Shown: piece by piece, positions 5,292 to 17,878 of the stretch
Layout: every line of letters starts with the position of its first letter
How positions within the stretch are numbered: position 1 is the stretch's first letter
Source of the DNA: Butyrivibrio sp. NC3005
GTDB taxonomy: Bacteria; Bacillota; Clostridia; Lachnospirales; Lachnospiraceae
Assembly (NCBI RefSeq): GCF_000424545.1
Contig: NZ_AUKC01000006.1
Coordinates: 75,072 to 139,071, forward strand
Reading direction: 5' to 3'
Length of the DNA: 64,000 nucleotides
Notes under the pieces: model-generated
The model's database searches: none
What the model was told of the DNA's origin: nothing
Seen by the model: only the letters and a program-made list of their open reading frames with translations
Made by a program: the position numbers and the translations under genes

Positions 5292-6527
5292 ATGGAACAT
5301 AAAATGGATGAGAAGAAAGTTCTTCATGTAAGAATGTTAGGACATTTTTCACTCACCTATGATGGACACGAAGTAACGCCGGGGCGAAATAACGCATCCA
5401 AATTCACTCAATTGTTGCAGATTGTATGGCTTCAGGGAGATAAGGGAGTTTCTAAGGATGAACTTGTTAATGCTCTTTATGGCGAAGATGAGACTAGTAA
5501 TATAAGTAATAGTTTCAATAATCTATTGTATCAGATGCGCAAACAGATGGTAGCAGCAGGGCTTCCATCTAAAGCTTATGTTAAAAAGCAAAAAAAGATT
5601 TTTATAATTGATCAGGAAGTTCCAGTATGGATAGATGTCTTAGAGTTTAGAAAACATTATCGTCTTGGACTAAATGCAATGTCTGAACCGGAGCGTTATC
5701 AGCATTATAGAGAAGCTTTTGATTTGTATCAGGGAGAGTTATTACCAGCTTTATCTACAGAGACATGGGTAATAATGGAGTCTGTGTCCTTAAGAAAAGA
5801 GTTTGGAGAAGTAGCAAAATGGCTTGGAAAATATCTCCAGGAGCAAAAAGAATATGATCAGGCCTTTAGAATTTATGGAAGAGCTGCTGATATATATCCT
5901 GAAGATGATTGGCAAGTTGGTCAGATTGAAAGTTTACTTAATAAAGGGGACTATAAAGGTGCTTTGTCAGTCTATGACAAAACCGTTGAATATTATACAG
6001 GCACATTAGGAATTTCAGTTCCTGAAAAACTCCTTGCTGTTTATCATAAGATGAGCGAAAGGATAGATAATGCGCCAGGACAGATTCATGAGATTCAGGA
6101 AGAAATGGTTGAAGATAGAAAATCTGTTCAGGAAGACGAAAATGGTGCATATGATTGCTCATATCCAAGCTTTATTGATGCATATCATATTTTGTCGAGA
6201 AATATGGAACGAACTGGATATTCTGTCTATATGATGTTGTGTACACTTGTTGATTATGAAGGAAAGATGATCCGCAATCAGGACAAACTAAAAATTCGAA
6301 GTGAAGCTTTATTTCAGTCTATAAGAACTACACTTCGAAGGGGAGACACGTTCACAAAATATTCAAATAGTCAGTTCCTTATTTTGCTAGTCGGAACTAG
6401 TCAGGAAGATTGTGATATTATTTATAGAAGGATGAATAAAAAACTTAAAGAAATTGCAGGACCAAGAGCGGATTTCAAGTATAGCGTGGTTTCTTTGGCT
6501 CAACTTCCAAAGATGAATGATGACTGA
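5292..6527 (+). CDS. SARP-like regulator with BTAD/TPR and degenerate GGDEF-like domain
   Basis: Probable transcriptional activator of 411 residues. Residues about 8-105 look like an OmpR-type winged helix, and 110-255 a bacterial transcriptional activator (BTAD) TPR region with DVLEFRKHYRLGL and YDQAFRIYGRAADIYPEDD. Residues about 295-411 resemble a nucleotide-cyclase/GGDEF fold, where RRGDTFTKYSNSQFLILL aligns with the usual R.gD.faRyggdEF.ill; SNSQF replaces GGDEF, so no cyclase activity is expected. It lies directly before the polymer operon in the same direction and may control it. Start chosen at 5292 after GGGGAGAAGG; an ATG at 5304 is possible. Confidence 0.75.
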   Translation: MEHKMDEKKVLHVRMLGHFSLTYDGHEVTPGRNNASKFTQLLQIVWLQGDKGVSKDELVNALYGEDETSNISNSFNNLLYQMRKQMVAAGLPSKAYVKKQKKIFIIDQEVPVWIDVLEFRKHYRLGLNAMSEPERYQHYREAFDLYQGELLPALSTETWVIMESVSLRKEFGEVAKWLGKYLQEQKEYDQAFRIYGRAADIYPEDDWQVGQIESLLNKGDYKGALSVYDKTVEYYTGTLGISVPEKLLAVYHKMSERIDNAPGQIHEIQEEMVEDRKSVQEDENGAYDCSYPSFIDAYHILSRNMERTGYSVYMMLCTLVDYEGKMIRNQDKLKIRSEALFQSIRTTLRRGDTFTKYSNSQFLILLVGTSQEDCDIIYRRMNKKLKEIAGPRADFKYSVVSLAQLPKMNDD

Positions 6528-6562
6528 AAACATAAAAAAGGATAAAAAAATTTAAGGTTTCG

Positions 6563-6582
6563 TGTTCACAGTTTGTTCACAG
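6563..6582. promoter_or_regulatory. 11-bp-phased direct repeat, possible SARP operator
   Basis: TGTTCACAG occurs at 6563-6571 and again at 6574-6582, an 11-bp period, so both face the same side of the helix. SARP-type activators are known to bind direct repeats spaced by one helical turn. The pair lies about 60 bases upstream of the -35 of the polymer operon. The link to the adjacent regulator is inference. Confidence 0.5.
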
Positions 6583-6639
6583 ACTATTAAAATTAACGAA
6601 AATTTTATCAAAAAAAATTTACTTTTGGCAGAATTGTTA

Positions 6640-6668
6640 ATGACATAATTTCGACTTTGTGTTATATT
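6640..6668 (+). promoter_or_regulatory. Promoter for the cell-surface polymer operon
   Basis: ATGACA (6640-6645), a 17-base spacer and TATATT (6663-6668) with an extended -10 (TGT before it). Start would be near 6675, leaving a leader of about 85 bases. Confidence 0.55.
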
Positions 6669-6760
6669 TACCTTTAGTCAGAGTTTGAAAATTTGATAAT
6701 GGGGGTGCGTTGCTGACGTAAATGAAGCAGTAACGGCTTTTAACTGGCTAGAGGATAATT

Positions 6761-7582
6761 ATGAAAAAAAACCAAACTGTAAAGATACTTGTGGCTACCC
6801 AGAAAAAGTACTGGATGCCAAAAAGCAAAATGTATATTCCGATGCAAGTTGGAGCTGTGAACATGAAAGATAAACAGGGTAATCCTGTTGATCTTGGCTA
6901 CCAAAAGGACGATATCGGAGATAATATTTCAGAAAAAAATCCATTATACTGTGAACTAACAGCTCTTTATTGGGCTTGGAAGAACATGGATACGGATTAT
7001 ATTGGACTTTGCCATTATAGACGTTATTTTGGCGGCCAGCGTAGTAACAGAAATCCTAAGGGAAGAGTTCTTTTGCGTAGAGAGATTCAGCCTATGCTTG
7101 GAAAGTATAGAGTATTTCTCCCAGCCAAGAGACATTATATTATAGAGTCATTGTATTCTCACTATCAACATACTCATTACATTGAGCATTTGTATGTGAC
7201 AAGAGGAATTATTTCACAGAAATATCCCGAATACATCGAAATCTATGACAAAGTACTTCGCCAGACAAGCGGCCATATGTTCAACATGATGATTATGGAT
7301 AAAGAACTTCTGAACGAGTATTGCGAATGGCTTTTCTCAATCCTTTTTGAATTAGAGAAAAAAATCGATGTTCGCCAGATGTCTAATTTCCAGGGGCGTT
7401 ATTGTGGAAGAGTGAGCGAGATTATTTTTAATGTTTGGCTTAACTATCAAATAGAGACTGGAAGAATCAGTAAAGATGAAGTTAAGATTCTTCCGTATGT
7501 GTATATGGAAAAGGTTGACTGGCTTAAAAAGGTTTCTAGATTCCTTAGAGCTAAGCTTTTCCATGAAAAATATGAAGTGTAA
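6761..7582 (+). CDS. DUF4422 glycosyltransferase-like protein
   Basis: A 273-residue cytosolic protein of the DUF4422 family, found in capsule, exopolysaccharide and teichoic-acid-like gene clusters and generally thought to be glycosyltransferases. The family start is recognisable (KILVATQKKYW), as is the block NPLYCELTALYWAWKNMD followed by YIGLCHYRRYFGG. No membrane segment is seen. First gene of a tight operon: only 2 bases separate it from the LicD gene. Donor and acceptor sugars cannot be predicted. Confidence 0.8.
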   Translation: MKKNQTVKILVATQKKYWMPKSKMYIPMQVGAVNMKDKQGNPVDLGYQKDDIGDNISEKNPLYCELTALYWAWKNMDTDYIGLCHYRRYFGGQRSNRNPKGRVLLRREIQPMLGKYRVFLPAKRHYIIESLYSHYQHTHYIEHLYVTRGIISQKYPEYIEIYDKVLRQTSGHMFNMMIMDKELLNEYCEWLFSILFELEKKIDVRQMSNFQGRYCGRVSEIIFNVWLNYQIETGRISKDEVKILPYVYMEKVDWLKKVSRFLRAKLFHEKYEV

Positions 7583-7584
7583 TT

Positions 7585-8514
7585 ATGAGTTCCTTGAATT
7601 TTTCAACTGTAAATGCATTTAAGCATATATCTGATGCTGGAAGCGTGGTATTAAATAACGAGGAATTGCTTCAGCTTCAGAAGACGCTGAATGCTATTCT
7701 TGAAGACATAGTTTCTGTATGCGACGAACATAATCTTACGTATACACTTGGCGGCGGTTCAGCTCTTGGAGCTGTTCGCCACCATGGCTTTATTCCATGG
7801 GATGATGATATTGATATTAATATGCCAAGAAAAGATTATGATAAGTTTATTCCACTTTTCAGAGCAAAATTTAAAAATAAATATTGGATTCATACGCCAA
7901 AAGATACAAAAGGTTTTAATCTTCTACTTTCGAGAATAAGATTAAAAGGTACAAGTGTTGTTACAAGAGAAGATTTTGCCAACAAAGAAGCTGGCGCTTT
8001 TGTAGATCTTTTCGTCATTGAAAATACTTTTAACAATGCATTTCTCCGCGCAATTCATGGTATTGGATGTAATGGATTGGGATTTTTGGTATCCTGTCGT
8101 AAGTTTTACAGGGATAGAAAACAAATGATGTCTATTGCCCAAAATGCCGGAAATAAGCATTTGACAAAAATTTTCAAATTGAAGATAATAATAGGATTCA
8201 TGATATCATGGTTGCCAATGGATAGATGGGTAAAGATTGGTGATTCATGGAATAGAATTTGTAAGAATAATAAATCTCGTTATGTTACTGTTCCTACCGG
8301 ACGAAAATACTTTTTTGGAGAAATGTATCGAAGAGAAGATATTTGCAAAACAAGAAATGTGCGGTATGATGGTAAATTGTATAAAGTTCCGAGAAACATA
8401 AAATTGTATCTAAGAAACTTATACGGAGATTATATGAAACTTCCGGATCCCGATTCAATTGAGAAACACGTATTTTTTGAACCGTTCTATCTGGAAAAAG
8501 GAGATAATAAATGA
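7585..8514 (+). CDS. LicD-family phosphotransferase
   Basis: 309 residues. LicD proteins transfer phosphocholine or a similar phospho-alcohol from a CDP-activated donor onto cell-surface glycans. The nucleotidyltransferase-fold core is visible at about residues 54-78: TLGGGSALGAVRHHGF then PWDDDIDINMPRKDYDKF, with the metal-binding Asp cluster intact. It overlaps the next gene, a CDP-alcohol-forming cytidylyltransferase, by 4 bases (ATGA), which fits a shared donor. The transferred group (ribitol-, glycerol- or choline-phosphate) is unknown. Confidence 0.85.
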   Translation: MSSLNFSTVNAFKHISDAGSVVLNNEELLQLQKTLNAILEDIVSVCDEHNLTYTLGGGSALGAVRHHGFIPWDDDIDINMPRKDYDKFIPLFRAKFKNKYWIHTPKDTKGFNLLLSRIRLKGTSVVTREDFANKEAGAFVDLFVIENTFNNAFLRAIHGIGCNGLGFLVSCRKFYRDRKQMMSIAQNAGNKHLTKIFKLKIIIGFMISWLPMDRWVKIGDSWNRICKNNKSRYVTVPTGRKYFFGEMYRREDICKTRNVRYDGKLYKVPRNIKLYLRNLYGDYMKLPDPDSIEKHVFFEPFYLEKGDNK

Positions 8515-9233
8515 ATGTAGCACTTATTTTTGCTGGCGGTACTGGTACTAGAATGAATACCAAGGCTGTTCCAAAGCAGTTTCTTATGCTTTATGGCAAA
8601 CCTCTTATTATTTATACATTGGAAAAATTTGAGAATCATCCTGAGATTGATGGTATAGTAATATCTTGTCTGGATGCATGGATTCCTCAGATGAAAAAAT
8701 ATTGTGAAAAATATGAAATTACAAAGGTTCGCTCAATAGTTCCTGGTGGTTCAACGGGTCAGGAATCTATTTATCACGGTCTTAAGTCTATTTCGTCTAT
8801 GTATAGTGATGATGCAGTAGTACTTATTCATGATGGTGTAAGACCGCTTGTTGATCCAGATACAATAACAAGTGCAATTGAGAAAACAAATGAAAAGGGA
8901 AATGCCGTTACAGTAACACCTGCAATCGAAACTATCTTCCTTGATAATGAGGCAGATGGCGAAGTTGGACGTATTATTGATCGTAAGAAATGTCTTATGG
9001 CAAGAGCTCCTCAGTGTTTTAAACTTGGAGAAATCATGGAGGCTCACCAGAAAGCTATTAGTGAGAATAGAAATGATTTTATTGATTCAGCCAGTATGAT
9101 GAAAGAATATGGACATAAACTCTTTACGATAGAAGGAAAGGCTGAGAATATTAAAATTACCACGCCGATTGATTTCTATTTATTCCGTGCAATCATCGAT
9201 GCACGCGAAAATTCACAGATATTCGGTTTATAA
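8511..9233 (+). CDS. IspD/TarI-family cytidylyltransferase (likely CDP-ribitol forming)
   Basis: 240-residue nucleotidyltransferase with the CTP-binding loop FAGGTGTRM (residues 7-15), PKQF near 22 and LIHDGVRPL near 103, as in IspD and TarI. Within a gene set for a phosphate-containing surface polymer, ribitol-5-phosphate (TarI) is more likely the substrate than methylerythritol-4-phosphate (IspD). No ispF or ispE lies nearby. No TarJ-type dehydrogenase is present either, so the source of ribitol-5-phosphate is unclear. Translation is probably coupled to licD through the ATGA overlap. Confidence 0.8.
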   Translation: MNVALIFAGGTGTRMNTKAVPKQFLMLYGKPLIIYTLEKFENHPEIDGIVISCLDAWIPQMKKYCEKYEITKVRSIVPGGSTGQESIYHGLKSISSMYSDDAVVLIHDGVRPLVDPDTITSAIEKTNEKGNAVTVTPAIETIFLDNEADGEVGRIIDRKKCLMARAPQCFKLGEIMEAHQKAISENRNDFIDSASMMKEYGHKLFTIEGKAENIKITTPIDFYLFRAIIDARENSQIFGL

Positions 9234-9249
9234 TGGGAGGAGTATATTA

Positions 9250-10518
9250 ATGCCAGTAGTTGAAATTGTTAAAAGAAAAGCTAAAAGAATGTATCCTGCG
9301 GCGGTAGAAGGAAGATTTTTTAAGCGTCTGGGAGTTGCTTGGAAACAAACAAAGACTTGGGTAGATAGAAGAATTGGATATGAAAACAGAAAGATTCTTT
9401 CTGAGAATACACCAGTTATTTATAATCAGATAATGTTTATTACTTTTAACCATAGTTATTCTTGTAACCCTAAGTACATTTGTGAAGAACTTATTCGGAG
9501 AAATGCAGATGTAGAAATATATTGGGGAGTTACTAATATGAATACTCGTGGCGGAGTACCAGATCTTCCTAATGTTCATGTTGTTAAGATGAACAGCTAT
9601 GAGTATTTTGAAGCTGCATGTTCTTCAAGAGTTATTATTATTAATTCGCTATTAGGAGACAAGTTTTATCCGTTCCCAGTTAAGAAAGAACAGAGAGTAT
9701 TTGAAACATGGCATGGCAGTCTTGGAATCAAGCGATTTGACCTTGCTCACTATAATACAAATCTTTCATGGCCTGAAGCTGCAAAGAGAACAGGTAAGCT
9801 TACCAATTACTGTATTTCAAATTCCAAGTTTGAAGAAGATGTTTTTCGTGAGACATTCTGGCCACAGACAAAGATTATGCGTCTTGGTCATGCCAGAAAT
9901 GATATTTTCTTTGACACCTATAAATCACGTCGTGCGCAGTGGAAGAAAGACTTCTTTGATGCACATGATTTGAAGGAAGGTACAAAGCTTGCACTTTATG
10001 CACCAACCTTCCGTGATACGCATAACTTCGAAGTATATGATTTGAATGCTGAAAAGGTTGTAAAGGCATTAGAAGATCGTTTTGGCGGAGAATGGAAGCT
10101 TCTTCTTCGTTATCATGACAATGATAAAAAGAATGAGAAAACACAAAATAAGCTTAAGTCCGAAAGTGTAATCGATGTTACAGATCTTCCGGATATTCAG
10201 GAACTTCTTTCTTTTGTTGATTGTGGTATCACAGACTATTCTTCATGGATTTATGATTTTATTCTTGGCAGAAAGCCTGGATTTATCTATGCAAGAGATG
10301 TAGAAGTTTATAATAATGAGCGTGGTTTTTATTTCAAACTTGAAGAGTCTCCATTCCCTGTTGCTTCTAGCAATGAGCAAATGCTGGAGAATATTGCAAA
10401 GTTTGATGAAGATTTATATCAGCAGAAAGTTACTGACTTCCTTAATGAAAAAGGTTGTATGGATGATGGTTATGCAAGTAGAAGAATTGCAGATCGTTTG
10501 ATGAAGCTGCTTGGTTGA
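9250..10518 (+). CDS. CDP-glycerol/ribitol phosphotransferase (TagB/TagF/TarL family)
   Basis: Peripheral membrane glycosyltransferase-fold enzyme of 422 residues that primes or polymerises polyol-phosphate chains. Family motifs: ETWHGSLGIKRF (about residue 153), YAPTFRDTHNF (about 249) and ITDYSSWIYDFILGRKP (about 327). The start is ATG 9250, placed after GGGAGGAG at 9234-9241; an in-frame ORF from 9169 lies inside the previous gene and has no ribosome binding site. Follows the cytidylyltransferase directly, which would supply its CDP-polyol. Whether it is a primase or a polymerase cannot be told. Confidence 0.87.
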   Translation: MPVVEIVKRKAKRMYPAAVEGRFFKRLGVAWKQTKTWVDRRIGYENRKILSENTPVIYNQIMFITFNHSYSCNPKYICEELIRRNADVEIYWGVTNMNTRGGVPDLPNVHVVKMNSYEYFEAACSSRVIIINSLLGDKFYPFPVKKEQRVFETWHGSLGIKRFDLAHYNTNLSWPEAAKRTGKLTNYCISNSKFEEDVFRETFWPQTKIMRLGHARNDIFFDTYKSRRAQWKKDFFDAHDLKEGTKLALYAPTFRDTHNFEVYDLNAEKVVKALEDRFGGEWKLLLRYHDNDKKNEKTQNKLKSESVIDVTDLPDIQELLSFVDCGITDYSSWIYDFILGRKPGFIYARDVEVYNNERGFYFKLEESPFPVASSNEQMLENIAKFDEDLYQQKVTDFLNEKGCMDDGYASRRIADRLMKLLG

Positions 10519-10528
10519 TTTGGATGAA

Positions 10529-11683
10529 ATGACTATGACTGTTTTAAAAAGTGATAGTGCAAGAGAAAATGCAGCTTTGCAGTTTCGTCAAAGCAAAAAG
10601 AGAAATGGCAGGATTGATTTTCTGCGATTTCTCTTTGCATTTATTGTTTTAATGCACCATTCTAGATATCTTCTCGGAGATGACAACTGTTATTTCCTTG
10701 GAGGTTCACTAGGAGTTGAGTTCTTTTTTCTGGTGTCTGGCTACTTGATGATGGCATCACTTGAAAAAATAATTCAAAAAAATGGTGTAGAAATAAAGGA
10801 AAAAAATCTTGCATATGAAACAATAGAGTTTATAAAAAGAAAAATAACATCGATCCTTCCGCAATATCCAATTGCTTGGTTTATTGGATTTTGCGTTGTG
10901 ATGTTTTTACATGAGTATTCTTTAAAAAAAGCTGCTAGAAAATTTGTGGCATACTTTTGGGAATTTTCATTGATGAAAATGACCGGAATATTCGAAAACG
11001 GGATAGATGGTGTAATTTGGTATATTTCAGCTATGCTCATATCTATGGCTATATTGTATCCTTTGATCAGGAAATGGCCAGAAATGATGAGAATGATTTT
11101 ATGTCCTCTTATAGCTTTGATGCTTCTTGGAATAACATGTGGATTGGATGGAAATCCAAGAAACCCAACAAAGTGGTATGGCATAATTTATAAGGGAAAT
11201 TTGCGGGCATTTGCTGAAATATGTCTTGGAATTACAATGTTTCGTATAACACAGAGAATAAAAAAGGTCGATTGGACTTTGTTCTCGAAAATTTTATTTG
11301 AAACTATTCAGATTTTGTGCTATGTTTCTTCAATAATCTACATGTATTATGACAAACCCGGAAAACAAGACTATTTTTACATGTTTTTGTTATACATAGC
11401 GGTTTCACTTTCTTTTGCTCAGGTTGGAATACTCTCGAAATTATTTAATAATTCTCTGAGTTATTTTTTGGGAAGAATAAGTACAGCAATATTCTTTTCG
11501 CATATATATTATGCACAGAACCTTAATATGATACTTCCTGACAACCTTGGTAAAAATGAGAAAATGTTTATTTATATTGCATGCAGCATTGTTACTGCAA
11601 TAATTGTTGAGTATCTCTCCTTTATTTGGAGAAAGTATTCCTGTGCAGATAGAATAAACAGGATATTTGTGAGGAAATTATGA
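10529..11683 (+). CDS. Acyltransferase family 3 membrane protein
   Basis: About 384 residues with about ten hydrophobic segments. The N-terminal signature is present: RIDFLRFLFAFIVLMHHS, with the family His in the first membrane helix, then GGSLGVEFFFLVSGYLM. Such enzymes O-acetylate or otherwise acylate sugars of surface polymers, using cytoplasmic acyl-CoA. The start is uncertain: no clear ribosome binding site precedes ATG 10529, ATG 10535 or TTG 10511 (the last overlaps the upstream gene), so translational coupling is likely. Ends in an ATGA overlap with the ABC permease gene. Confidence 0.83.
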   Translation: MTMTVLKSDSARENAALQFRQSKKRNGRIDFLRFLFAFIVLMHHSRYLLGDDNCYFLGGSLGVEFFFLVSGYLMMASLEKIIQKNGVEIKEKNLAYETIEFIKRKITSILPQYPIAWFIGFCVVMFLHEYSLKKAARKFVAYFWEFSLMKMTGIFENGIDGVIWYISAMLISMAILYPLIRKWPEMMRMILCPLIALMLLGITCGLDGNPRNPTKWYGIIYKGNLRAFAEICLGITMFRITQRIKKVDWTLFSKILFETIQILCYVSSIIYMYYDKPGKQDYFYMFLLYIAVSLSFAQVGILSKLFNNSLSYFLGRISTAIFFSHIYYAQNLNMILPDNLGKNEKMFIYIACSIVTAIIVEYLSFIWRKYSCADRINRIFVRKL

Positions 11684-12456
11684 GTAAGATGATAACGTTG
11701 TACAAAAAATATCAGTTTCTTTTTGAGGAATTGGTAAAACGTGATTTTAAGCAGAAGTATAAGAGGAGTATTTTAGGAATGGGGTGGAGTATTCTTTCTC
11801 CTCTTTTGTCCCTTCTTGTTATGTATGTAGTATTTTCCAGACTTTTTGGTCATAGAATGGAACATTATGTAACTTACCTTTTCTCTGGTCAGTTAGTCCT
11901 TTCTTATTACAAGGAATCTACCAAAAATGGAATGACCAGTTTAGTAAATAATGCAAAAATTTTTACTAAAATAAATGTGCCAAAATATATGTTCTTATTG
12001 TCTAAAAATGTATCCGCTTTGGTTAATTTTGGTTTGACTTTACTTGTTTATTTTGTATTTTGCGCTTTTGATGGTATAACATTTCATCCTCAGCAGCTTT
12101 TGTTTTTCTTTCCGGTTTTATGCCTTCTTTTATTGAATATTGGGGTAGGTCTTATTTTATCGGCAATGTTTGTGTTTTTTAGAGATGTTCGTTATCTTTA
12201 TGATGTACTTCTTACACTTTTGACATACGTTTCTGCGATATTCTATTCAGTTGATAAGTTTGGTGAAGTTGGTAAGCAGCTGTTTTTGTTAAATCCAATA
12301 TATGTCTATATCAAATATATACGTTTGATAATGATTGATGGTATTATACCTTCACTTTCATATCATGGATTATGCGTATTATATGCTGCATTTTATTTGG
12401 GTATAGGTGGTTATATCTATAAGAAGAATAATCATGCATTCTTATACTATTTATAA
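11680..12456 (+). CDS. ABC-2 type polysaccharide/teichoic acid export permease
   Basis: 258 residues with six hydrophobic segments, of the TagG/Wzm/KpsM type. The N-terminus has the amphipathic start typical of the family (FEELVKRDFKQKYKRSILGMGW), followed by the membrane region. Would form the translocation channel with the ATPase domain encoded next, exporting a lipid-linked polymer across the membrane. The ATGA overlap with the acyltransferase gene and the 53-base gap to the ATPase gene fit one transcript. Confidence 0.87.
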   Translation: MSKMITLYKKYQFLFEELVKRDFKQKYKRSILGMGWSILSPLLSLLVMYVVFSRLFGHRMEHYVTYLFSGQLVLSYYKESTKNGMTSLVNNAKIFTKINVPKYMFLLSKNVSALVNFGLTLLVYFVFCAFDGITFHPQQLLFFFPVLCLLLLNIGVGLILSAMFVFFRDVRYLYDVLLTLLTYVSAIFYSVDKFGEVGKQLFLLNPIYVYIKYIRLIMIDGIIPSLSYHGLCVLYAAFYLGIGGYIYKKNNHAFLYYL

Positions 12457-12509
12457 TTATTAGTGGATTATGTGTAAAACAGCAACGTATTTTTTGAAAA
12501 GAGGCTAGT

Positions 12510-14603
12510 ATGTCTGTAATTGAATGTAATAATGTAAGTATCAGATACATAACCGGAGATTTTAAAGCAATAGGTTTAAAGGAATATGTAATAAGACATT
12601 TAACCGGTAAATATAAAGTTAAAGAGTTTTGGGCAGACAAAGATGTCACCTTTAGGCTTGAAAAGGGAGACATGCTTGGAATAATTGGAAGTAATGGAGC
12701 TGGAAAATCTACTCTATTAAAGGCAATAACAGGCATTATGGTTCCAACTTATGGCGATTTGCATACAAAAGGAAATATTGCTGCATTACTTGAACTTGCA
12801 AGTGGATTTGATGGCGATATGACTGTAAGAGAAAATACTTATCTTAGAGGCGCACTTCTTGGGTATACAAGGGAATTCCTTGATGAAAAGTATGATGAGA
12901 TTATTAGATTTGCTGAGCTTGAAGATTTCCAGGAATATGAGTTCAAACAGCTTTCATCAGGTATGAAGAGCCGTCTTGCATTTGCAATTGCCTGTCTTGT
13001 TAATCCGGATATTATTATTCTTGATGAAGTTTTGTCAGTTGGAGATGGAGCTTTTCGTAAGAAATCTGGCGATAAGATGAAAGAAATTCTTAATAGTGGT
13101 GTTACAGGACTTCTTGTAAGTCATAGTATTTCTCAAGTTAGAGAATTGTGTAATAAGATTTTGTGGCTTGATCATGGAAAACAGATTGCTTTTACTGATG
13201 ATGTAGAGCACTATTGTGATGCATATGAAGAGTTTCTAATGACTAAGAAACTTCCAAAGAGTGCAGCTGATATCGATAAACTTGCTGAAGGCTATAAAGT
13301 ACGTAAGCTTCAGGAAGAGCAGGAAAAAGAAGCTCAAGAAATTGAAAGAGCTAGAAAAAAACTTGAAAAAATCGAGAAAGATAGTGCAAAAAAAGCTGAA
13401 GCAAAGAAGAAGGCAGAAGATAATAAGAAATCAGAATCTGATAATAAGGCAACTAGTACAAAGTCTGTGAAGGAATTTGAAGTTAAAATCGATGATTATG
13501 ATTTGATTTTGGAAAGCCCAGATGATGCATTTCTTCAGGAGGATTTAGAAAAAACAGCAAATTATGATAAGATTCCTTTTGAAATGCTTAAAGATTCCCA
13601 GATTCTTGTTACAGGTGCAACAGGTCTTGTAGGTTCGCAGATGGTCAAGAGTCTTGCAGCAATGAATCGTATAAAGAAGCTTAATATGAGGATTCTTGCC
13701 CTTGTTAGAAATGAGAAAAAAGCAAAAGAAATCTATGGAGATTTGCTTACAAGAAGCGATATTCTTCTTGTTAATGCAGATCTTAATGATAAGGAACAAC
13801 TTGTTGTAGGTGTTAAGTCTGCACTTCAGGAAGATAGGAAGTTCTATGTTATTCATGGAGCAGCAGTTACTACTTCGAAGACAATGATAGAACAACCTGT
13901 CGGAACAATTGATACATCTCTTAGAGGGACTGAAAGTATCCTTAAACTTGCTTCAGAATGCAATGTTGCATCTTTTGTATATCTTTCATCAATGGAAGTA
14001 TATGGAACATGGGATGGAAGCAGCATTGTTACAGAAGATAAGATGGGATATGTTGACCCGATGGCCGTTAGAAGTAATTATCCTTTAACCAAAAGAATGT
14101 GCGAAAACATGTGCATTGCATATAATAAGCAAAATGGTGTACCTGTAAAGATTGCACGTTTATCACAAACTTTTGGAGCAGGTACTCTTCCTAAGGAAAA
14201 TCGTGTGTTTGCTCAATTTGCAAAGAGTGCAATGCATAAAAAGGATATCGTACTTCATACTAAGGGGCAGTCTGAAGGAAATTATTGCTATACCGCAGAT
14301 ACAATAAGAGCGCTTCTTATCATTCTTTTAAAAGGAGAAAATGCAAGTGCCTATAATATCAGTAATGAATCTACTCATACTACTATTGCCGGAATGGCTA
14401 AGTTTGTTGCAGAGAAACTTGCTGATAATAAGATTAAAGTTATATTTGATATTCCAGAAGAAAATACTTTTGGTTATGCAGCGGATACTAAGATGAAACT
14501 TTCAAGTAAGAAACTTCAATCTCTTGGATGGAATCCAGAGTATGATCTTGAAACTGCATATAATCGAATGATTGGAAGTATGCGTGAACGCGGAATTGAT
14601 TAA
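12510..14603 (+). CDS. Fusion of TagH/Wzt-type ABC ATPase with an extended SDR (NAD epimerase-like)
   Basis: One 697-residue frame. Residues 1-240 are a polymer-export ABC ATPase: Walker A GSNGAGKST (about 60), signature LSSGM (about 148), Walker B IIILDE (about 167-172) and switch His in VSHS. Residues about 255-320 are a Lys/Glu/Ala-rich helical linker. Residues about 363-697 are an NAD(P)-dependent extended SDR with GATGLVGS (369-376), YLSSMEVYG and YPLTK as the YxxxK pair. Wzt proteins often carry a C-terminal glycan-binding domain; here an enzyme-like domain takes its place. The ATPase should pair with the preceding permease. The SDR may modify the exported polymer or its precursor; substrate unknown. 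A sequencing artefact seems unlikely, as the linker is continuous and the downstream terminator normal. Confidence 0.85.
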   Translation: MSVIECNNVSIRYITGDFKAIGLKEYVIRHLTGKYKVKEFWADKDVTFRLEKGDMLGIIGSNGAGKSTLLKAITGIMVPTYGDLHTKGNIAALLELASGFDGDMTVRENTYLRGALLGYTREFLDEKYDEIIRFAELEDFQEYEFKQLSSGMKSRLAFAIACLVNPDIIILDEVLSVGDGAFRKKSGDKMKEILNSGVTGLLVSHSISQVRELCNKILWLDHGKQIAFTDDVEHYCDAYEEFLMTKKLPKSAADIDKLAEGYKVRKLQEEQEKEAQEIERARKKLEKIEKDSAKKAEAKKKAEDNKKSESDNKATSTKSVKEFEVKIDDYDLILESPDDAFLQEDLEKTANYDKIPFEMLKDSQILVTGATGLVGSQMVKSLAAMNRIKKLNMRILALVRNEKKAKEIYGDLLTRSDILLVNADLNDKEQLVVGVKSALQEDRKFYVIHGAAVTTSKTMIEQPVGTIDTSLRGTESILKLASECNVASFVYLSSMEVYGTWDGSSIVTEDKMGYVDPMAVRSNYPLTKRMCENMCIAYNKQNGVPVKIARLSQTFGAGTLPKENRVFAQFAKSAMHKKDIVLHTKGQSEGNYCYTADTIRALLIILLKGENASAYNISNESTHTTIAGMAKFVAEKLADNKIKVIFDIPEENTFGYAADTKMKLSSKKLQSLGWNPEYDLETAYNRMIGSMRERGID

Positions 14604-14610
14604 AATATGT

Positions 14611-14646
14611 AAAAAAGGCATCGAAAGAATTTTCGGTGCTTTTTTT
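14611..14646 (+). terminator. Terminator of the polymer operon
   Basis: AAAAAAGGCATCGAAA pairs with TTTTCGGTGCTTTTTT (G-U included) around a 3-base loop. The T-run ends at 14646. Confidence 0.85.
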
Positions 14647-14778
14647 ATCACAAAAAATGTTGAAAATATGATATTTTTTGTGATGAATGTTTTGTTATAT
14701 TAATAACATAGATATCTAAGATATCGAAAAATTAAGGGGAAAAGTTGTGAAATAACTTGAAATAGGAGGAGATTTACC

Positions 14779-15000
14779 ATGAGCATGCAAAGGCAACATG
14801 GAAATAGAGATGGAAAAGGAACATTTATCGTTGAAATCAGACACCAAGATGGGGATACTTGGCAAGGTAAAGTGACTTGGGCAGAAGGAAATAGGCGCGA
14901 AAATTTTCGTAGTACGCTAGAACTTATGAAAATGATGGATTCTGCAGTTAATTCAGTAGTCGAAAATGATGATTTTGATGAGCGATATTCAACGCTTTGA
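14779..15000 (+). CDS. Small 'TWQG' domain protein, unknown function
   Basis: 73 residues, not assigned to a named family. The core (about residues 14-60) reads GTFIVEIRHQDGDTWQGKV then TW, and aligns with the C-terminal half of the next gene's product (ATFVVQVKY...ATWQGEVIW). The pattern is a beta-hairpin-like TF-V-V/I, then TWQG-V-W-E, then a helix (STLELMKMMDSAV). No membrane segment or signal is present. AGGAGGAG precedes the ATG. Paired with 15052-15489 and probably cotranscribed (51-base gap). The AT-rich region upstream holds small palindromes (TGTTATATTAATAACA). Confidence 0.65.
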   Translation: MSMQRQHGNRDGKGTFIVEIRHQDGDTWQGKVTWAEGNRRENFRSTLELMKMMDSAVNSVVENDDFDERYSTL

Positions 15001-15051
15001 TTGTCCCAAAACTAATTGAATAAAAAAGTAATAATAAGACAGGAGAAGTGA

Positions 15052-15489
15052 ATGAAAGAAATGCTTTATGCACCAAATCTTGTTAGCATAGGAGTTGATG
15101 GAAAAACAGCAGGAGACTACTATGGTAGATTATGGATACCGTATGCGGAAGAGGCTGAGAATTTTTCTGGAATGAAACAGCTTCTTATGATGCTTGATGA
15201 TCAGTATGACAAATGGAATTATCCTCAAAGGTCAGTAAATTATCGTAGTTTAGTGAAAAAAGCGGACGAAACAACTAATGAAGAAAAAATAAATAACAAA
15301 TTTCTTTTTGTTGAAAAAGTCAATGATATGCAGCAGAAACGGGGAAAAATGGCAACCTTTGTCGTACAGGTTAAGTATAGACAACGAGCGACTTGGCAAG
15401 GGGAAGTAATATGGTCAGAAAAGGATACTAAAGAAAGCTTTTTGAGTGCTTGGGATTTAGTGAAAAAAATAGATAAGTATTGTAATTAA
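15052..15489 (+). CDS. Two-part 'TWQG' domain protein, unknown function
   Basis: 145 residues. The N-terminal half (about 10-65) contains GDYYGRLWIPYAEEAENF and LLMMLDDQYDKWNYPQRSV, a compact region that looks like a separate small domain. The C-terminal half (about 98-144) is paralogous to the 73-residue protein just upstream, with TWQGEVIWSE and a terminal helix. The linker between them is charged. No catalytic residues or membrane segments can be picked out. An AGGAG site at about 15042 precedes the ATG, and a terminator follows. Confidence 0.65.
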   Translation: MKEMLYAPNLVSIGVDGKTAGDYYGRLWIPYAEEAENFSGMKQLLMMLDDQYDKWNYPQRSVNYRSLVKKADETTNEEKINNKFLFVEKVNDMQQKRGKMATFVVQVKYRQRATWQGEVIWSEKDTKESFLSAWDLVKKIDKYCN

Positions 15490-15494
15490 ATGTT

Positions 15495-15525
15495 AGCCAT
15501 AGAGACATTCTCTATGGCTTTTGCT
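15495..15525 (+). terminator. Terminator after the TWQG pair
   Basis: AGCCATAGAGA (15495-15505) and TCTCTATGGCT (15509-15519) form an 11-bp stem with a 3-base loop, followed by a T-rich stretch. Confidence 0.75.
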
Positions 15526-15596
15526 TTAAATTGTTAGAGTATTCTGCTATAATTCAATCATAGTTTGAATAATGCTTGATTGGAAAAGAGGAAATA

Positions 15597-16547
15597 ATGG
15601 AAAATAGTTATAACATTGATCATATCATCAAAGTTATTCTTCAAGACTATGATAAAGGGCGCGATGTAGACAAAATGGATGCATTTGCCCAGCCTGATAA
15701 GAAGGCAATTGAGGACATAACAAATAAACTATTGAATGTGATTTTTCCGGGATATTATAGAGATAAGTTTTATAAAAGCTTTAATGATCGTAACCGCATT
15801 TCTGTTCTTATAGAAGATGTGATTTATAATTTGGAAAAACAGATTACTATAGCGCTTAATTATCACAAAGATTTTGAAGATACAGATGAACAGCTAAGAA
15901 AAAATGCAGCCAGACATTTGACTTCAGCATTCGGTGAAAGAATACCGGTTATTAGAGAATACGTAGATACAGATGTTCAGGCTACTTTTGATGGAGATCC
16001 AGCTGCTTATGGTAAAGAAGAAATAGTTCTATGTTATCCAGGACTCTTAGCAACGACAATTAATCGAATTGCACATGAACTGTTTTTGCTAAAAGTTCCA
16101 TTTATTCCAAGAATGATGACAGAATATGCGCATAGCAGAACAGGAATTGATATTCATCCTGGAGCTACAATCGGAAAATATTTTATGATAGACCATGGAA
16201 CTGGTGTAGTAGTAGGAGAAACATCTATTATCGGTGCAAATGTTAAAGTTTATCAGGGAGTAACAATCGGTGCGTTATCTACAAAAGGCGGACAAGCATT
16301 GAAGGGCGCAAAGAGGCATCCTACAATCGAAGATAATGTAACTCTATATTCAGGAGCATCAATTTTGGGTGGTCAGACAGTAATTGGTCATGATAGCATA
16401 ATTGGCTCGAACTGTTTTATTACTGCATCAGTACCACCACAGACAAGAGTGACCATTCGAAATCAGGAACTTCTTTATAAAGATGGCAACGGAAAGGAAT
16501 GTACATCCGATGAGTTTCATCAGGGAGCCTGTTGGGGGACGCCATAA
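15597..16547 (+). CDS. cysE: Serine O-acetyltransferase
   Basis: Makes O-acetyl-L-serine from serine and acetyl-CoA, the first step of cysteine synthesis. 316 residues: a helical N-terminal region, then a left-handed beta-helix of hexapeptide repeats from about residue 180 (GIDIHPGATIGKYFMIDHGT, GVVVGETSIIGANVKVYQGV, SILGGQTVIGHDSIIGSN). The catalytic His of DHGTG and the His of IDIHPGA are present. AGAGGAAATA sets the start at ATG 15597 and not the in-frame TTG at 15576. Lies 47 bases before the aminopeptidase gene. It is the longer EpsC-like form and not the ~270-residue enterobacterial CysE. Confidence 0.9.
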   Translation: MENSYNIDHIIKVILQDYDKGRDVDKMDAFAQPDKKAIEDITNKLLNVIFPGYYRDKFYKSFNDRNRISVLIEDVIYNLEKQITIALNYHKDFEDTDEQLRKNAARHLTSAFGERIPVIREYVDTDVQATFDGDPAAYGKEEIVLCYPGLLATTINRIAHELFLLKVPFIPRMMTEYAHSRTGIDIHPGATIGKYFMIDHGTGVVVGETSIIGANVKVYQGVTIGALSTKGGQALKGAKRHPTIEDNVTLYSGASILGGQTVIGHDSIIGSNCFITASVPPQTRVTIRNQELLYKDGNGKECTSDEFHQGACWGTP

Positions 16548-16594
16548 GCTTTGATTTTTAATAAATGATATATAATTTTTTTAGGAGTAAAGAA

Positions 16595-17878
16595 ATGTTT
16601 AGTGAAGTAACAAAAGAAATGCTTGATTTTATTGACGCATCACCAAGCTGCTACCATGTAGTAGAAAACCTTGCAAAAGAACTTGATAAAGCTGGTTTTA
16701 CAAAGCTTGATGAGAAAGAAGAATGGAAACTTGAATCAGGAAAGTCATATTATGTGACAAGAAATGGTTCATCTATTATTTCCTTTAAACTTCCAGTAAA
16801 GGATTATAAGGGATTTCGCTTTATGGCAAGTCACAGCGATTCACCTTCTTTTAAAATAAAAGAAAACCCTGAAATGGTAACAGAAAAGGCATATGTACGC
16901 CTGAATGTTGAAGGATATGGCGGAATGCTTGATGCACCTTGGTTTGACAGACCGCTTTCAATAGCAGGAAGAGTTTTAACTGTGGAGAATGGACATATTA
17001 AGAGCCGTCTTGTAAATGTAGATAAAGACCTCTTGATGCTTCCATCTCTCGCAATTCATATGAATAGAGAAGCTAATAAAGGATATAGCTATAATGCACA
17101 GAAAGATATGCAGCCAATATTTGGTGATGAAGAAGCAAAGGATTGTTTTTGGAAGATAATCGCAGACGCAGCTGGAATTGAAGAAAAAGACATCTTTGGT
17201 AGTGATTTATTCTTATATAACAGAGTAAAACCAACAACATGGGGTGCTAATGGCGAGTATATATCTTCTTCAAGGCTTGATGATCAAGAATGTGTTTATA
17301 CTACGTTTAAAGGATTTATGAGCGCAAAAGCAAAAGAATATGTGCCTGTTCATGTTGTATTTGATAATGAAGAAGTTGGAAGTGGTACAAAACAGGGTGC
17401 TGCATCAACATTCCTTAAAGATACACTTGAAAGAATAAATGAATCCCTTGGAAAATCAAGACAGGAATATCATATGGCTCTTGCAAATAGTTTCATGGTA
17501 TCTGCTGATAATGCACATGCAGTTCACCCAAACTATACAGATAAAGCAGACCCTGTTAACCGCCCTGTTATGAATAAAGGCATTGTCATTAAATTTAATG
17601 CAAATCAGAAATATACAACTGATGGTGTTTCACAGGCGTTTTTTAGAACAGTATGTGAAAACGCAGATGTTCCATATCAGATTTTTACTAATAGAAGTGA
17701 TATGCCAGGCGGTTCAACACTTGGAAACATATCTACTACCCAAGTGGCAATCAATACAGTTGATATAGGACTTGCACAGCTTGCAATGCACTCACCATAT
17801 GAGACAGCTGGTGCAAAAGATCCTGTTTATCTTGCTAAAGTTTCTAAAGAGTTCTACGAAGCGGATATTGAACTCTAA
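16595..17878 (+). CDS. M18-family aminopeptidase
   Basis: Cytosolic zinc aminopeptidase of 427 residues that prefers acidic or hydrophobic N-terminal residues. Two-zinc ligand motifs of the family are all visible: ASHSDSPSFKIK, SSRLDDQECV, FDNEEVGSGTKQGA, VSADNAHAVHPNY and MHSPYETAG. TTTAGGAG before ATG 16595 defines the start; an in-frame ATG at 16565 would add ten residues, but has no ribosome binding site. It may be cotranscribed with cysE. Confidence 0.92.
   Translation: MFSEVTKEMLDFIDASPSCYHVVENLAKELDKAGFTKLDEKEEWKLESGKSYYVTRNGSSIISFKLPVKDYKGFRFMASHSDSPSFKIKENPEMVTEKAYVRLNVEGYGGMLDAPWFDRPLSIAGRVLTVENGHIKSRLVNVDKDLLMLPSLAIHMNREANKGYSYNAQKDMQPIFGDEEAKDCFWKIIADAAGIEEKDIFGSDLFLYNRVKPTTWGANGEYISSSRLDDQECVYTTFKGFMSAKAKEYVPVHVVFDNEEVGSGTKQGAASTFLKDTLERINESLGKSRQEYHMALANSFMVSADNAHAVHPNYTDKADPVNRPVMNKGIVIKFNANQKYTTDGVSQAFFRTVCENADVPYQIFTNRSDMPGGSTLGNISTTQVAINTVDIGLAQLAMHSPYETAGAKDPVYLAKVSKEFYEADIEL

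Follow-up and report, generated by a model that had tools for sequence, protein, structure and literature searches.

Does a single gene of Butyrivibrio sp. NC3005, a bacterium of the gut and rumen type, really join the ATPase of a polymer exporter to an extended SDR enzyme and, if so, what would this enzyme make and what could its tethering to the exporter mean? We addressed this question in a window of 64,000 nucleotides, the whole stretch of DNA that was analysed. Positions 12510 to 14603 of its forward strand form one unbroken frame from ATG to TAA, which encodes 697 amino acids (78.0 kDa), and a Shine-Dalgarno sequence, GAGG, is located 5 nt upstream of the ATG. Two Pfam domains score far above their cut-offs in the fused protein: ABC_tran at residues 44-174 (E 1.1e-22) and Epimerase (PF01370) at residues 365-617 (E 5.8e-37). 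The motifs of both halves are intact: GSNGAGKS, LSSG, IIILDE and VSHS, which are the Walker A, LSGG-type signature, Walker B and H-loop of the ATPase, followed by GATGLVG and by YPLTK, the YxxxK motif of the SDR. The parts of the gene are as follows.

12510-14603, + strand: fused gene, exporter ATPase of the TagH/Wzt type, linker and extended SDR resembling CDP-alditol synthases (697 aa)
12510-13244, + strand: ABC nucleotide-binding domain, residues 1-245 (Pfam, PDB matches, motifs)
12687-12710, + strand: Walker A
12951-12962, + strand: LSSG signature
13011-13028, + strand: Walker B
13116-13127, + strand: H-loop
13245-13526, + strand: charged linker rich in Lys and Glu, residues 246-339, a prolonged Wzt tail that continues into the N-terminus of the SDR
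13527-14600, + strand: SDR domain with its N-terminal helix, residues 340-697
13614-13634, + strand: GATGLVG
13986-14006, + strand: SSMEVYG
14079-14093, + strand: YPLTK

The first half has all the features of a Wzt/TagH export ATPase, namely Walker A, an LSGG-type signature, Walker B, the H-loop and a neighbouring ABC-2 permease. Its best PDB matches are TarH/TagH proteins (6jbh, 7dd0, 9cfl), and its top NCBIfam models are teichoic-acid export ATPases, with scores below their cut-offs; the second half best matches 8v4g/8v4h. Wzt proteins of the O9a type end in a carbohydrate-binding domain. No Pfam match to such a domain was found in the fused protein, whose C-terminus is the SDR. Pfam, the motifs and the 697-aa frame confirm what the first-pass annotation had claimed, that an ABC exporter ATPase and an intact extended SDR share a single frame; the gene belongs to a polymer operon, and the genome is a Lachnospiraceae one of Butyrivibrio type.

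Relatives of this gene are split. In a sample of 79 genomes of the genus, the own genome included, five others have the window's operon, each with the ATPase and the SDR as adjacent but separate genes (ATPase, first 260 aa, 87-92% identical to that of the window; SDR 54-70%). Three of these five correspond to loci L069, L070 and L079, with which they have a 400-base stretch in common. Weaker SDR matches in genomes G008, G068 (twice) and G075 have frames of 343-397 aa. Among the best 80 of 463 candidate SDR loci, none has the SDR fused to an ATPase; in 17 of these 80 an ATPase gene ends at most 400 nt upstream of the SDR, and 14 of the 17 ATPases are at least 79% identical to that of the window. 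These 14 loci, together with genomes G001 and G002, both outside the 80, make up 16 split syntenic orthologues. Genome G344 has a further separate ATPase-SDR gene pair; there, directly behind the ATPase gene, the SDR orthologue (L161:3085-4440) reaches 451 aa and has an apparent insertion of about 90 aa before its catalytic half.

Wider samples gave the same picture. At E 1e-60, 397 genomes of the family yielded 51 SDR matches in 49 genomes, with a long frame (701) only in the window and frames of 331-462 aa for the other 50; at E 1e-50, 36 genomes of an order sample (392 genomes, overlapping the family sample) matched, again with the long frame only in the window and with 330-390 aa for the other 36 matches. 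None of the best 5000 matches in a plasmid collection covered 80% of the query. One candidate for a second fusion, a 673-aa frame over both halves in G053, was rejected, as direct reading revealed two in-frame stops; the search of the order sample gave a frame of 371 for its SDR. Since all the syntenic orthologues found are split and no second fusion occurs in these samples, the split form is likely to be the ancestral state, and the ATPase-SDR fusion has so far turned up in no examined SDR locus other than that of the window. The first-pass annotation had asked whether the fused form is widespread in Lachnospiraceae; for this pair it does not seem to be, even if exporter fusions with other enzymes do occur (see below).

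The same annotation had held that consistently split orthologues would reveal a frame or assembly error. That every syntenic orthologue found is split, that the fused frame is known from one assembly of one genome, and that a single-base change near 13500 could soon close the ATPase frame would indeed suit an error of sequencing or assembly, or a frameshift of very recent date, in which case the cell would make two proteins. The region between the two halves speaks otherwise. In the split relatives, the stop, the Shine-Dalgarno sequence and the start codon fall in the region matching the linker, and in 5/5 of them a Shine-Dalgarno sequence of 5-6 nt (GAGGT, GGAGGT or AGGAGG) lies 5 nt before an SDR start, which in G077 and G001 is the second ATG. 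No start codon with a comparable Shine-Dalgarno sequence exists between 13240 and 13545 of the window in any of the three frames: the sole start there with more than 3 nt is a TTG, with AAGG just 3 nt before it, in a frame that ends at 13504, and the in-frame starts GTG 13467, TTG 13503 and TTG 13509 have none. A one-base error would not erase these signals. Moreover, by codon-usage log-odds, frame 0 is the best frame in every 25-codon segment (step 8) along the whole ORF, with +8 to +15 across the linker, although a long ATPase tail alone would also fit this unbroken signal; the test was trained on the 38 other ORFs of at least 250 aa in the window (32 on the + strand, 6 on the - strand), some of them possibly spurious. 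When the test was applied to two split relatives, G077 and G053, the signal broke down in the stretch that separates the ATPase gene from the SDR gene.

The fused frame is not due to chance. Given the loss of the internal Shine-Dalgarno sequence and start in every frame, together with the continuous coding signal, we judge a one-base error unlikely, and the reading of the frame as an artefact or fresh frameshift is improbable. Consistently split orthologues, which the annotation had named as refuting its reading, are indeed what the relatives show, but the error that it would have deduced from them is unsupported. The linker itself resembles a lengthened form of the charged tail of the split orthologues, which extends 31-80 aa past residue 245 (n=13). 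We also considered and rejected decay of the SDR under relaxed selection: its branch length (0.226) is close to that of split G053 (0.230) and below that of G020 (0.515).

The fusion is the last gene of a tight block, composed of the following genes and closed by a probable terminator.

6761-7582, + strand: DUF4422 protein, first gene of the block (Pfam; block conserved in relatives)
7585-8514, + strand: LicD-family phosphotransferase (Pfam)
8511-9233, + strand: IspD/TarI-type cytidylyltransferase, expected partner enzyme of the SDR (Pfam, NCBIfam, PDB)
9169-10518, + strand: TarF-like CDP-alditol phosphotransferase, which more probably begins at the ATG at 9250, preceded by the Shine-Dalgarno sequence GGAGG
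10511-11683, + strand: acyltransferase family 3 (Pfam), probably for O-acetylation
11680-12456, + strand: Wzm-type ABC-2 permease (ABC2_membrane, E 1e-8)
14609-14648, + strand: hairpin with U tract 3′ of the fused gene, likely transcription terminator (-19.8 kcal/mol, z -6.9)

The hairpin is absent from the list of a simple terminator scan, yet folds strongly. Just upstream of the operon, window positions 5292-6527 encode a protein in which a transcriptional activator domain of the BTAD type is accompanied by weak matches to TPR and GGDEF; it is conserved along with the operon (59-77% identity in G001, G002, G020 and G053) and is a possible regulator. Downstream, positions 15052-15489 encode a 145-aa protein without Pfam match; in relatives, this place is occupied by one or two ORFs related to it.

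The cytidylyltransferase (PF01128) lies in the same operon as the SDR, at a non-adjacent position. It scores 170.3 bits with the D-ribitol-5-phosphate cytidylyltransferase model NF001183, narrowly over the cut-off of 166, and its second and third PDB matches are ribitol-5-phosphate cytidylyltransferases. A point against its assignment to a CDP-alditol pathway is its score of 180.5 bits with the isoprenoid ispD model TIGR00453, barely under the cut-off of 181.3. The genome encodes two further full-length IspD-like proteins (33% and 30% identical to it), so the enzyme of the operon need not serve isoprenoid synthesis. In the TarIJ pathway to CDP-ribitol, the cytidylyltransferase TarI works with TarJ, a reductase of the alcohol-dehydrogenase type. 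None of the ten proteins scanned (window 5292-17875) is an alcohol dehydrogenase, although a TarI-like enzyme is present.

What, then, does the SDR half do? By sequence, its nearest PDB structure is 8v4g/8v4h (E 2e-43), which is HS5.17 of the C. jejuni HS:5 locus; the second PDB protein is human UDP-glucuronate decarboxylase (UDP-xylose synthase). According to the excerpt of PMC10918830 on which we rely here and below, HS5.17 is a CDP-6-D-glucitol synthase that converts CDP-6-fructose to CDP-6-glucitol with NADPH, is paired with a PF01128 cytidylyltransferase and crystallised as a dimer; it has an unusual 20-residue helix ahead of the Rossmann fold, and Met139-Glu140 replaces the dehydratase pair. 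The same excerpt describes Mnp1/Mnp2 of S. pneumoniae 35A, a cytidylyltransferase followed by an SDR reductase, Mnp2 giving CDP-mannitol.

An AlphaFold model of the window SDR (pLDDT 90.8) points to the same enzyme. Foldseek placed 8v4g/8v4h at ranks 1-4, and VIA-align gave HS5.17 a Z of 39.9 (rmsd 2.2, 331 residues) and the next different protein a Z of 35.4; the absence of a family from these lists is not counted as exclusion. In the model, a helix (20-30) precedes the strand 43-47, as an extra N-terminal helix ahead of the first Rossmann strand; residue 1 of 8v4h aligns at model residue 18 and the other proteins listed by VIA-align start at 31-43. Where dehydratases have Asp-Glu or Asp-Lys, the window SDR has M495-E496, the Met-Glu pair also reported for HS5.17 in the excerpt.

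Of the 16 side-chain contacts of HS5.17 named in that excerpt, 13 are identical in the window SDR: among the NADP(H) contacts N34, R56, K60, T98, Y167, K171 and R208, six of seven are retained (N34 is Thr), and among the CDP contacts S100, R164, D212, T227, R233 and Y295, four of six (D212 is Gln, R233 is Gly). In 24 homologues, the Thr and the Gln are invariant and the Gly nearly so; the whole subfamily would therefore depart from HS5.17 at these three contacts. In five further extended SDRs encoded by this genome, 1, 2, 3, 3 and 6 of the 13 retained contacts recur; among IspD-linked homologues, that of L. plantarum has all 13, that of Parabacteroides 12 and two others 7 each. The remaining SDR-like matches in the genome are merely 24-26% identical to the window SDR, which is thus the sole close copy.

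The gene neighbourhoods of SDR homologues agree. Of the best 80 of 463 candidate SDR loci, 66 contain an IspD gene, which adjoins the SDR in 46 of the 80; the 14 loci without an IspD match comprise two short contigs and 12 with 9.6-13 kb of DNA. Three plasmid homologues, labelled only epimerase/dehydratase or oxidoreductase in the databases, sit immediately after ispD/tarI, and in one of these loci (Parabacteroides) the next genes encode a ribulose-phosphate 3-epimerase and two CDP-glycerol phosphotransferases. A pentulose substrate, which the ribulose-phosphate 3-epimerase might suggest, was not adopted: this epimerase is present in the Parabacteroides plasmid locus only, and none of the best 80 of 463 SDR loci has a match to it at E 1e-8, so that the substrate may be a pentulose or a hexulose.

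From the likeness to HS5.17, the 13/16 contacts, the helix, the Met-Glu pair and the partner cytidylyltransferase in the operon, we read the window SDR as probably a CDP-alditol synthase, that is a CDP-ketose reductase, which would feed an alditol-phosphate polymer; its substrate class and the type of polymer are predicted from these resemblances. Two points count against this assignment: the three changed contacts, two of which are in the CDP site, and the 14 of the best 80 of 463 SDR loci without an IspD match. The first-pass annotation had called the SDR epimerase-like, and an epimerase, a 4,6-dehydratase or a decarboxylase acting on another nucleotide sugar might modify the precursor or the chain end at the exporter. 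The Pfam profiles Epimerase and GDP_Man_Dehyd do match, and the human decarboxylase follows directly in the PDB sequence ranking. We nonetheless hold this to be very unlikely, as the CDP-glucitol synthase is clearly nearer by sequence and fold, the dehydratase pair is Met-Glu as in HS5.17 (excerpt of PMC10918830), and enzymes of a CDP pathway surround the window SDR and its relatives. Of the two roles that had been offered, precursor or end-group modification, a part in making the precursor is thus the most likely, and end-group modification is unsupported.

Altogether, we consider it likely that the gene is a true translational fusion, that its operon builds and exports a surface polymer of alditol phosphate, similar to teichoic acid, and that the SDR half is a CDP-ketose reductase. 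The fusion would have arisen when the stop, the Shine-Dalgarno sequence and the start between two neighbouring operon genes were lost. Its first half is the ATPase of the Wzm/Wzt exporter. The TarI/IspD-type enzyme of the operon would join a ketose phosphate to CTP; with NADPH, the SDR half would then reduce the resulting CDP-ketose to a CDP-alditol, which the LicD- and TarF-like transferases would consume for the polymer. Tethering of donor synthesis to the exporter is our best reading: the tether might simply concentrate donor supply at a membrane site shared by the transferases and the exporter. Gating of export by chain completion, also suggested at first, is unsupported. The exporter ATPase is dimeric within Wzm2Wzt2. 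The long linker could join an ATPase dimer and an SDR dimer in a 2:2 assembly, which is plausible because both partner folds act as dimers. The fusion is not required, since syntenic relatives have the operon with separate genes.

Does such a tether have precedents? We took 16 regions from the ATPase match list, eight of them chosen for a long open frame. Four of these eight (L156 to L159) encode a Wzt fused to UDP-galactopyranose mutase, as do L121 and L148, which are among the best 80 of 463 SDR loci:

L156:4342-6258, - strand: Wzt-UDP-galactopyranose mutase, C-terminal fusion
L157:2901-4880: same fusion
L158:3455-5389: same fusion
L159:2613-4583: same fusion
L121:1753-3723: same fusion
L148:616-2664: same fusion

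Mutases are nearly all stand-alone among the matches listed. In the ATPase tree, all six Wzt-mutase fusions group together in a single clade (support 1.00), to which the window ATPase does not belong; this argues that the Wzt-mutase fusion is old and maintained. Locus L159 carries both a Wzt-mutase fusion and an IspD-SDR pair; L121, which also has an IspD-SDR pair, encodes a 626-aa protein (8091-9968) whose first half weakly matches SDRs and whose second half contains a LicD domain. Among the other long-frame regions, the exporter ATPase is fused to a polysaccharide pyruvyltransferase in L154:2964-4736 (591 aa) and follows a glycosyltransferase in L153:155-3148 (998 aa); L155 turned out to encode an ordinary 245-aa ATPase. 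The exporter ATPase of L160:2479-4662 (- strand, 728 aa) begins with nearly 490 extra residues, for which Pfam gives no more than a weak cadherin-like match.

The own genome holds two Wzt-acyltransferase-3 fusions, L002:1450-3498 (contig C32) and L003:1438-3534 (contig C9), with the acyltransferase Pfam match above the cut-off in the former and just below it in the latter. These paralogous ATPases each directly follow their Wzm gene, and the acyltransferase-3 domain is of the membrane type. In L078:3207-5096 (630 aa) and L082:2921-5056 (712 aa), an acyltransferase is fused to the Wzm permease; both loci, which belong to the best 80 of 463 SDR loci, are orthologues of the window operon, fused at another junction. 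All these counts are lower bounds and not rates, and they come mainly from one bacterial family.

The window fusion is apparently one case of a recurrent habit. One may tentatively go further and picture the polymer-export ATPase of Lachnospiraceae, or its permease, as a recurrent docking hub, linked in independent fusion events to enzymes that produce or modify the building block of the polymer. Donor synthesis, assembly and export would then be united in one membrane-bound machine that couples the ATPase cycle to donor supply; we regard this as conceivable rather than probable. Neutral drift, a stop loss without gain, competes only with the tethering part of our explanation, and there it is a serious contender, if somewhat short of probable: the fusion has been seen in a single genome, relatives get by with two genes, and the linker has no demonstrated special fold. 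The retention of the Wzt-mutase fusion over a long divergence argues against drift in general, but what it tells us is that tethering can persist, not that the tether of the window does.

That an exporter ATPase and a donor-making enzyme are naturally linked in one chain suggests that both can work side by side, and the fused polypeptide is a single molecule on which the coupling of export and donor supply can be measured. It bears on whether ABC-dependent surface polymers are made in complex with their exporter. In mycobacterial galactan synthesis, an interaction of the polymerase with Wzm-Wzt has been proposed and was still under study, according to the excerpt of PMC10951656 consulted. We found no description of a Wzt-SDR or Wzt-mutase fusion in the titles and abstract openings listed from the open-access literature. 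A CDP-ketose-type reaction has already been predicted for about 400 PF01128-PF01370 pairs (excerpt of PMC10918830), and our reading would extend it to an SDR that is labelled just epimerase/dehydratase or oxidoreductase in database records.

Compared with known systems, the window SDR shares with HS5.17 the fold, the N-terminal helix, Met-Glu, YxxxK, most NADPH contacts and a PF01128 cytidylyltransferase as partner within a polymer locus; it is only about 30% identical to it, differs in three contact residues and is fused where HS5.17 stands alone (HS5.17 as described in the excerpt of PMC10918830). The split Wzt-SDR pairs of Butyrivibrio and other Lachnospiraceae (L069, L070, L079 and others) have the operon of the window in two-gene form. 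Abp1/Abp2 of S. pneumoniae 17F are said, in the title of 2012 work by Wang and colleagues (cited in PMC10118250), to produce CDP-D-arabinitol. Likened by pathway, Mnp1/Mnp2 and Abp1/Abp2 follow the two-enzyme logic proposed here, a cytidylyltransferase and then an SDR reductase, and their reductases are not known to be fused to an exporter. TarH/TagH (6jbh, 7dd0, 9cfl) have, as in the window, an ATPase domain with full motifs and a Wzm-type permease alongside. TagH and Wzt are known with other C-terminal tails, unlike the window protein, which ends in an enzyme. The Wzt-mutase fusions resemble it in that the ATPase is joined at its C-terminus to an enzyme for an activated sugar donor, yet they involve a different enzyme family and a separate ATPase clade. 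The domains and the pathway logic are known, and it is their combination in the Butyrivibrio gene that is new.
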